Source of the DNA: Ferruginibacter sp.
GTDB taxonomy: Bacteria; Bacteroidota; Bacteroidia; Chitinophagales; Chitinophagaceae
Assembly: GCA_025351645.1 (NCBI GenBank)
Contig: JANXVN010000159.1
Location: 1 to 54,772 of the forward strand
Direction of reading: 5' to 3'
DNA length: 54,772 nt
Under the pieces are notes generated by a model. It was not told where the DNA came from and did no database searches. It saw only the letters and a list, made by a program, of their open reading frames with translations. The translations under genes and the position numbers were made by a program. Below are positions 2,719 through 38,752 of this stretch, one piece after another. Numbering within the stretch: the first letter of the stretch is position 1; each line of letters starts with the position of its first letter.

Positions 2719-3453
2719 ATGATAGAAAAGTTTGGTATTGATGGCATTTACATTGTACATGCAAAAAAAGGGTACGAATACCATGAGGAGCGGATCAATA
2801 AACTGTTTACTGCATTAGGGCTGCATTTTGAATTTGTAACTGATGGCGACCCTGCTAATTTTAATAACGGGCTGCTGAAAAAGTATTTTACTGAAGACAT
2901 CAGGCAGGTATTGCCTGACGGGGTGTTGAGCTGTACGCTGAACCATATTTTAAGTTATGAACGGATGGTTAAAAACAATAACCGCTATGCTATAATATTT
3001 GAAAACGACCCATTTTTTTTAGGAGATTTTGTACAACAGATAAAAAAGATAGCTGCCGAAGCTGCTACCTTGCAACCAGGCTTTTTAATTTCGCTGGAAA
3101 ATACTACCCTTAAATTTCCAGCCTATAAACAATTACGCAAAGGGCAGTTATTATACCCGAGTACTTATGGGCGCTGTGCAGGTGCTTATATGCTTGACTT
3201 ACAGGCTGCAAAAGATATTTTAAAAGAACTAGAAACCAATAAATGCAGGCAGGTTATAGATTGGTGGCACAATACGTTAATTGATAGAAAAGTAGTAAGC
3301 ATGTACTGGGCAGACCCGCCGATAACAGAACAAGGCTCGCATAACGGGATGTTATCTGCCGGCATATCTACAAAGAATAAAAGCCTGCAGCGCCGCATTG
3401 CCTGGGTAGCGCAAAAATATTATAAAACGTATATTTTGAGATGGTTTAAGTAG
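2719..3453 (+). CDS. Glycosyltransferase family 25 (LPS-type) protein
   Basis: The protein (244 aa) begins IDGIYIVHAKKGYEYHEERI, typical of the GT25 opening where the donor-binding strand precedes an Arg-rich helix. It has FENDPFFLGDF at the position of the family's xEDDxxL metal-binding motif, with Asn in place of the first Asp. SCTLNHILSYERM matches the conserved SHxxxW/Y region. GT25 enzymes add hexoses to LPS core or surface glycans in the cytoplasm. It converges on the sugar-nucleotide operon. The acceptor is unknown. Confidence 0.7.
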   Translation: MIEKFGIDGIYIVHAKKGYEYHEERINKLFTALGLHFEFVTDGDPANFNNGLLKKYFTEDIRQVLPDGVLSCTLNHILSYERMVKNNNRYAIIFENDPFFLGDFVQQIKKIAAEAATLQPGFLISLENTTLKFPAYKQLRKGQLLYPSTYGRCAGAYMLDLQAAKDILKELETNKCRQVIDWWHNTLIDRKVVSMYWADPPITEQGSHNGMLSAGISTKNKSLQRRIAWVAQKYYKTYILRWFK

Positions 3454-3498: not shown

Positions 3499-3610
3499 GG
3501 ATTATTAAGCAATGCCGTTAAGTTAAGACTTTTCCTCTCCTTTGGAGAGGGTTAGGGTGAGGTAAAGACAAACATATAGATCTTTAACTTAACGGCATTG
3601 GATTATTAAG
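3499..3610. mobile_element. MITE-like element (91 bp, 3510-3600) with flanking target duplication
   Basis: The ends are perfect 17-bp inverted repeats: CAATGCCGTTAAGTTAA (3510-3526) and its complement (3584-3600). The 10-bp direct repeat GATTATTAAG flanks it on both sides (3500-3509 and 3601-3610). The centre carries a hairpin CCTCTCC-TTT-GGAGAGG (3534-3550) followed by GTTAGGGTGAGG. The element encodes no protein. A diverged second copy lies at 38658-38743. Removing the element and one direct repeat restores a different 3' end for the small reading frame at 3589-3711. Confidence 0.75.
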
Positions 3611-38655: not shown

Positions 38656-38752
38656 TTCAATGCCATTTAATTAAGCCCTTTCTTTTAGAAAGGATTAGGG
38701 TGAGGCAAAGAAAGACAAGGAATGTTTAACTTAACGGCGTAGGTTTTATAAT
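38649..38752. mobile_element. MITE-like element, second copy (about 38658-38743)
   Basis: Left end CAATGCCATTTAATTAA and right end TTAACTTAACGGCGTAGG are diverged versions of the ends at 3510-3600. The core hairpin CCTTTCT-TTT-AGAAAGG (38677-38693) and GATTAGGGTGAGG are kept. TTTATAAT occurs on both sides (38649-38656 and 38745-38752). The left direct repeat contains the stop codon of the second isocitrate dehydrogenase gene. Confidence 0.65.

Follow-up and report, generated by a model that had tools for sequence, protein, structure and literature searches.

Insertion sequences (ISs) of the IS4 subgroup are 1400 to 1650 bp long, have ends of the form -AATR--------WTW---- and generate target duplications of 10 to 13 bp, and some members show a striking specificity in the target arms, according to the sections of PMC2266710 used here. 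MITEs living as satellites of ISs have precedents in the excerpted parts of PMC10969869 and PMC9769881. For the TM_ECO/PIT motif of E. coli, the portion of PMC4666352 on which we draw reports no association with transposons, phages or plasmids, and it states that PIT motifs had neither promoter nor terminator activity in an earlier study.

Here we analyze a 91-bp stretch within 54,772 nucleotides of a Ferruginibacter sp. genome (the window). This stretch is a MITE, with about a hundred near-identical, gene-less copies in one genome. Beyond what an earlier, sequence-only reading of the same DNA had described, its centre is, judged by its sequence, a repeat in its own right, capable of triplex formation and found elsewhere without these ends.

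Results

Anatomy of the element and its insertion site

The sequence-only reading had described a 91-bp element with perfect 17-bp inverted ends, flanked by a 10-bp repeat, GATTATTAAG, and we recovered exactly this arrangement at 3510 to 3600. It had placed the whole feature at 3499 to 3610; the end is correct, and the start is one base early because the repeat begins at 3500. The features of the window are as follows.

3510..3600, + strand: whole MITE, 91 bp, type A of the family (from the sequence and the family copies)
3500..3509, no strand: left copy of the 10-bp target duplication GATTATTAAG (from the sequence; 10-bp duplications occur family-wide)
3601..3610, no strand: right copy of the 10-bp target duplication GATTATTAAG (from the sequence)
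3510..3527, + strand: left terminal inverted repeat CAATGCCGTTAAGTTAAG; the IS fragment on contig C79 has an identical outer end
3583..3600, - strand: right terminal inverted repeat, 17 of 18 bases matching the left repeat
3534..3562, + strand: core, a 29-bp repeat capable of forming an intrastrand triplex (architecture read from the sequence)
38658..38742, + strand: second, degenerate family member, 85 bp, with three mismatches per end and a similar core

The element is short and non-coding and is bounded by terminal inverted repeats that are perfect over 17 bp in the window and over 18 bp in the family consensus. The window copy differs from that consensus at element positions 21 and 74, the latter lying in the right end. 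When folded as single-stranded DNA, the element reached -21.2 kcal/mol (z = -7.4); the interior without its ends gave a z of only -1.3. The 18-mer end, with up to three mismatches allowed, occurred four times in the window, compared to 0.11 expected. The flanks of the degenerate copy at 38658 to 38742, GTTTATAATT and GTTTTATAAT, are near-duplicated.

The location of the element "at the 3' end of a gene" holds only in the sense that it lies 56 bases downstream of the gene at 2719 to 3453. That gene was present in 3 of 59 genus genomes, the source genome included. One of these, G016 (79% identity, same genus), shows an unoccupied syntenic locus, with gene order kept and the element absent; in G054 (57% identity), gene order was not kept. 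The proposed comparison with empty sites was thus borne out at the level of synteny but not base by base: no exact empty site was found, and the intergenic DNA of G016 is too different to show one. The remark that a small upstream frame would end ILKKSL without the insertion is literally right for the 40-amino-acid minus-strand frame once the flanks are joined (element and one repeat removed). However, this frame is probably no gene, since the roughly 21 bases between the two neighbouring stop codons of G016 leave no room for it.

Copies and target duplications in the source genome

We searched the source genome (4.71 Mb in 320 contigs) and found at least 40 near-full-length copies by DNA search, where the best 40 of 232 first-look candidates were scored. 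The end pattern AATGCCGTTAANTTAA, at one mismatch or fewer, gave 152 + 170 matches versus 1 + 2 for the reversed control. Similarly, the 18-mer end (up to one mismatch) and the core (up to two) gave 136 + 136 and 58 + 42 matches, respectively, with none in either control. The wider copy search that the sequence-only reading had proposed therefore returned many elements with the same ends.

All 100 core matches, comprising 99 genome loci and the window copy, served as the sample for duplications. Ninety-six had both ends, one was cut by a contig edge, and three were without such ends; one of the 96 lacked a flank, leaving 95 that could be scored. The 10-bp duplication was exact in 66 of these, matched at 9 of 10 bases in 15 and at 8 or fewer in 14, so that 81 of 95 copies had 9 or 10 duplicated bases in agreement. 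Random pairing of the same flanks yielded exact matches in 1.0% and 9-of-10 matches in 1.6% of cases. No exact duplication of 6 to 9 or 11 to 13 bp was seen among the 95. The duplication consensus from the 81 good sites, AATTATAATT, describes a two-fold symmetric, AT-rich target, with T five bases before it in 70 of 81 sites and A five bases after it in 70 of 81. The 96 two-ended copies are thus dispersed in the way that defines a MITE, and most of those that could be scored carry the target duplications that go with it.

Among 89 copies of 91 bp, 16 were identical to the consensus, and the median copy had 2 differences (worst, 13). None of the 29 scorable copies (30 loci) lay inside a frame of 100 codons or more. 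In this genome, further elements of 112, 113, 94, 90 and 92 bp have these ends around a different or diverged interior. At one further locus (L052 130-432, contig C52 of the source genome, G000), a 303-bp element with the same ends has what appears to be a nested inverted-repeat element inside a triplex-like core. A plasmid collection searched with the element gave no match. Viral contigs gave one exact 18-mer match, uninformative and near the edge of the stretch examined.

We then compared relatives. Seven of 38 (23 of the same genus) matched the element, all within positions 33 to 74, the core region, and such ends were absent nearby at 7 of 7 core loci of relatives. Across 396 genomes of the order, the source genome included, the ends were found in 16, the core in 38 and both in 6. 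With 136 + 136 18-mer ends versus at most 22 + 25 in any of the 395 others, the source lineage shows a lineage-specific burst of these ends.

The helper insertion sequence

An exact scan with the 18-mer across a species-level genome collection returned at least 96 stretches, 80 of which were examined as loci. The matches listed fell in Methylococcaceae, Desulfobacteraceae, Betaproteobacteria, Bacteroidota, Lachnospiraceae, Planctomycetota and others; in a collection this large, about 8 matches would arise by chance, and single matches in odd taxa may be of that kind. At least four of the 80 loci (L076, L109, L086 and L146, the last from Chitinophagaceae) held a 1.4- to 1.6-kb element with such ends and an IS4-type transposase. 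A fifth IS, L281, came from a genome of the same order as the source and has a 448-codon frame. Locus L282 (G219) shows the same sequence as L149, which comes from a Bacteroidetes bacterium; with L146, such named loci with the same elements suggest a Bacteroidota source near the Chitinophagales.

The transposase is a single long frame in L076, L109 and L281 and is broken in L086 and L146. Target duplications were exact in all five ISs (9 bp in L109, 10 bp in the other four), and L086, L146 and L281 are 1398 to 1404 bp long. The four transposases scanned (L076, L109, L086 and L146) all scored above the cut-off for PF01609, and three of the four did so for the IS4 model NF033592 of NCBIfam, L086, a fragment, falling below. 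The Y-2-R-3-E-6-K signature expected of such a DDE transposase was found in 5 of 5 with these ends. The nearest plasmid-borne relatives of the L281 transposase, about 31% identical, are annotated as ISPa1635 family, IS4.

Two contig edges of the source genome carry pieces of such an IS. Contig C79 begins inside one, with an N-terminal piece (74% translated identity to the L146 IS over 106 codons) and an exact 18-bp end, and C301 ends inside one, with a C-terminal piece (70 to 71% identity to the L146 IS) and an end with three differences from the 18-bp end. The aligned stretch of one of these two fragments contains a stop codon. They may come from one IS or from separate ones, intact or not. 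No intact IS4-type transposase with these ends was found in the source genome, just these two incomplete edge fragments. The search for a transposase gene bounded by the same ends thus succeeded locally for fragments, with C79 giving the element its ends in common with an autonomous element, but whole ISs were found in other genomes only.

These ISs match the IS4 subgroup, as the consulted part of PMC2266710 describes it, in length, ends, duplication and target traits to within a few bases. Specifically, CAATGCCGTTAAGTTAAG fits the Table 1 consensus -AATR--------WTW----, and the 10-bp duplication of the MITEs and of 4 of 5 ISs lies in the 10- to 13-bp range, L109 having 9 bp. A 10-bp duplication, which had been thought long for a MITE, is therefore ordinary for this subgroup. 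By sequence comparison, an IS4-subgroup insertion sequence that has these 18-bp ends very probably serves as the helper. Six PF01609 matches in the source genome were considered as helpers and set aside, none lying between such ends in the flanks examined. The match on C218 was likewise rejected: it belongs to an IS1634-type IS adjoining a truncated MITE. At that locus (L065 ~140-2293, G000 C218), the IS1634-type frame of 654 codons abuts a MITE truncated at one end, and the duplication is unclear.

The triplex-capable core

The core consists of a pyrimidine stem, a TTT loop, a purine stem, GTTA and a purine third strand. In the window (3534 to 3562) it offers 7 triads with no mismatch, so that pyrimidine stem, purine stem and antiparallel purine third strand all lie in one strand. 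A strict triplex scan was passed by 76 of 96 copies and failed by 20. Compared letter by letter to the E. coli consensus CCCTCNCCCN3-6GGGNGAGGGN3GGGNGAGGG, the window core does not match, its pyrimidine side being two bases shorter and its purine sides one base shorter. The core is, as far as sequence can tell, related to TM_ECO/PIT in architecture and not a strict member. A search of Rfam gave two matches far below gathering scores (LPR10, 19.4 of 69 bits). The weak whalefall-1 match at 3531 to 3564 (17.9 bits versus a gathering score of 37) may reflect a hairpin that the core region and whalefall-1 have in common.

We asked whether the E. coli K-12 TM pairs could be decayed IS4 MITEs. The best matches to IS4-type ends at the five inverted pairs, taken from a table that also lists 13 unpaired sites, had 7 to 11 mismatches in 5 of 5 pairs, which rules out this origin for these five and shows them to be bare. 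By eye, these pairs (L342-L346) have some flanking sequence in common, such as, in several of them, GGGGAC followed by a GAGCAC-like stretch, which may mark borders of their own.

The 55-bp interior had no match beyond 10 bp (E 0.5) to the five ISs and two local IS fragments, and beyond the 18- to 20-bp ends the element had no significant match to any of them; the centre is not recognizable as IS sequence. Core-like sequence could still lie in the middle of the local IS, a part missing from the assembly.

When 65 copies were selected by their exact ends, the core carried 0.83 single-copy mutations per site and the spacers 0.69; a rate not below that of the spacers indicates no extra constraint on the core. 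Total difference was 0.017 in the core compared to 0.028 and 0.052 in the spacers, and the lower core value stems largely from a few shared polymorphic spacer positions. An initial comparison (core 0.017, spacers 0.054) was discarded as biased, since its copies had been selected through the core. This one mutation test favours a core that would be a passenger.

The same ends around other cores

Among the 80 loci from the 18-mer scan, at least 33 had a second end within 310 bp. Five of the 33 carried exact 10-bp duplications, five more matched at 9 of 10 bases, and two others had an exact 11-bp duplication; the remaining loci were weaker, and not every pair need be a real element. Together with further loci of the order and the window, these made 43 elements and 36 non-redundant interiors. 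Folding was strong (z < -3) in 23 of 36 interiors versus 6 of 180 control windows, which were drawn from the same loci and include coding DNA. The triplex motif occurred in 6 of 36 interiors (window included) versus 4 of 1702 control windows, and GTAG-tagged hairpins occurred in 3 of 36 versus 9 of 687 random windows (shuffles: mean 0.38, maximum 3). The window interior has no GTAG tag beside a hairpin. These comparisons of sequence indicate that, in several phyla, such ends surround different cores, most of which form hairpins.

The GTAG REP GTAGGAGCGGGCC..GCCCGCGA was searched in four genomes to which the loci had led, where it matched 52, 33, 75 and 0 times; its reversed control had no match. 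Many of the matches formed inverted pairs. From 20 of the 160 matches, 17 distinct loci were obtained: at 4 of them both sides carried such an end, at 7 one side did and at 6 neither. One hundred shuffled ends gave one-sided hits in 22 of 1700 cases and two-sided hits in none. In the genomes of L117, L078 and L152, more than half of the sampled inverted GTAG REP pairs (L310-L329) adjoin IS4-type ends, and REPs there may partly travel as IS4 MITEs. Another core, GCTATAAATAT.TGACCTC, was found in 3 of 5 order genomes searched, mostly between such ends: among 8 flank-distinct loci, some of them parts of one element, 6 had ends on both sides, 1 on one side and 1 on neither.

Discussion

Ends, core, copies, duplications and target symmetry are read directly from the sequence, as are both IS ends at the contig edges and the whole ISs elsewhere. 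We consider it highly probable that the element is a non-autonomous IS4-subgroup MITE, moved in trans by an IS with the same ends, and that its core is not IS-derived. An IS4-subgroup transposase from such an IS would bind CAATGCCGTTAAGTTAAG and excise the element, presumably by the cut-and-paste chemistry of its family. The element would then be joined to the target AATTATAATT, which is symmetric and AT-rich and has a T five bases before it and an A five bases after it, and staggered target cuts 10 bp apart would produce the 10-bp duplication. At the centre lies a 29-bp repeat capable of triplex formation, known without these ends as well and probably acquired, not inherited from the IS. A full-length active IS is likely to be present now, or to have been present earlier, in the source genome. 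The sequence-only reading had likewise proposed a MITE, a real insertion event and a transposase acting from elsewhere, and the copies, the duplications and the matching IS support all three. Formation by two ISs inserting beside the repeat was rejected by geometric reasoning, since the outer borders of the ends would then face the core.

How the core came to lie between these ends, and what it does there, can be viewed differently. The core might be functional, with its hairpin or triplex aiding movement (for instance, by drawing the ends together on single-stranded DNA) or acting as a terminator that makes insertions tolerable. The hairpin-rich interiors elsewhere, the triplex scan passed by 76 of 96 copies and the absence of scorable copies from long frames are consistent with such a role. 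Yet the folding controls include coding DNA, the window interior without its ends folds weakly, the core accumulates single-copy mutations no more slowly than the spacers, and PIT motifs were inactive as promoters or terminators in the study that the excerpt of PMC4666352 mentions; we regard a functional core as unlikely, if still worth weighing. An internal deletion of a parent IS, with the core as left-over IS sequence, is a route described for the Cardinium MITECca01, with a few parental bases kept beside the end (PMC9769881, in the part used here), and the unassembled middle of the local IS leaves space for it. Nevertheless, the lack of any significant IS match past the ends, the order genomes in which core and ends mostly occur apart (38 with the core, 16 with the ends, 6 with both) and the 7 of 7 core loci of relatives without these ends make this route very improbable for the window element.

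Least probable of all, to the point of being nearly negligible, is that another enzyme moves the element, either a RAYT-type protein acting on the palindromic core or a transposase of another IS family, the IS4-like ends being incidental. The core does resemble REP-type repeats and occurs bare elsewhere, and the genome has other transposases, such as the IS1634-type one beside the truncated copy. However, in 66 of 95 copies the duplications begin precisely where the 18-bp ends stop, five other genomes have IS4 transposase genes between these ends, and elements within the source genome have common ends and differing interiors.

A broader reading, which we offer tentatively and would not bet on, is that conserved IS4-subgroup ends are a vehicle across phyla that repeatedly takes up host palindromes (triplex repeats, GTAG-REP pairs and others) and spreads them. 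If this is true, small palindromes would owe some of their abundance in bacteria to hitch-hiking on IS4 MITEs, and bare repeats would be donors, or MITEs with decayed ends. In any case, the element provides a triplex-capable repeat with a vehicle that is copied and can be dated, whereas the consulted portion of the PMC4666352 survey found no mobile carrier for it. How triplex repeats spread becomes testable, since different cores lie between the same ends, one class of helper transposase is identified and the target is sharp and symmetric.

A literature search of titles and abstract openings, weak evidence of absence, found no description of the element, and AATGCCGTTAAGTTAAG appeared in 0 papers. 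The following comparisons extend as far as the excerpts of the cited papers on IS4, TM_ECO/PIT, QMITE2 and MITECca01. With the IS4 subgroup (PMC2266710), the family has in common the end consensus, the 10-bp duplication, an IS length of 1.4 to 1.6 kb, YREK and a strong target preference that includes the arms; the window element differs in being gene-less and in sharing just the 18-bp ends with the ISs. Like TM_ECO/PIT (PMC4666352), the core has a pyrimidine stem, a short loop, a purine stem, a 3- to 4-base TTA-type loop and a purine third strand, but its stems are shorter, and IS4-type ends enclose it whereas the E. coli pairs lack them (5 of 5).

QMITE2 of Coxiella burnetii (PMC5896051) is also a MITE with a REP-type palindrome as its interior, and its short copies look like bare REPs. 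It differs in its GTAG REP core, its size of 150 to 190 bp, its 7- to 11-bp duplications and its roughly 10 full-size copies, and the excerpt names no IS4 parent. GTAG REPs and REPINs (PMC3733652, PMC3116915) are likewise short intergenic palindromes, often in inverted pairs, and in three genomes to which Methylococcaceae-type loci led, GTAG REP pairs are enclosed by IS4-type ends or adjoin them; unlike the window core, which has no GTAG tag, they are thought to be moved by RAYTs. Finally, MITECca01 of Cardinium (PMC9769881) is, like the family described here, a high-copy (169), lineage-specific bacteroidete MITE sustained by a parental IS, but its parent is IS982 and its interior is described as parent-derived.
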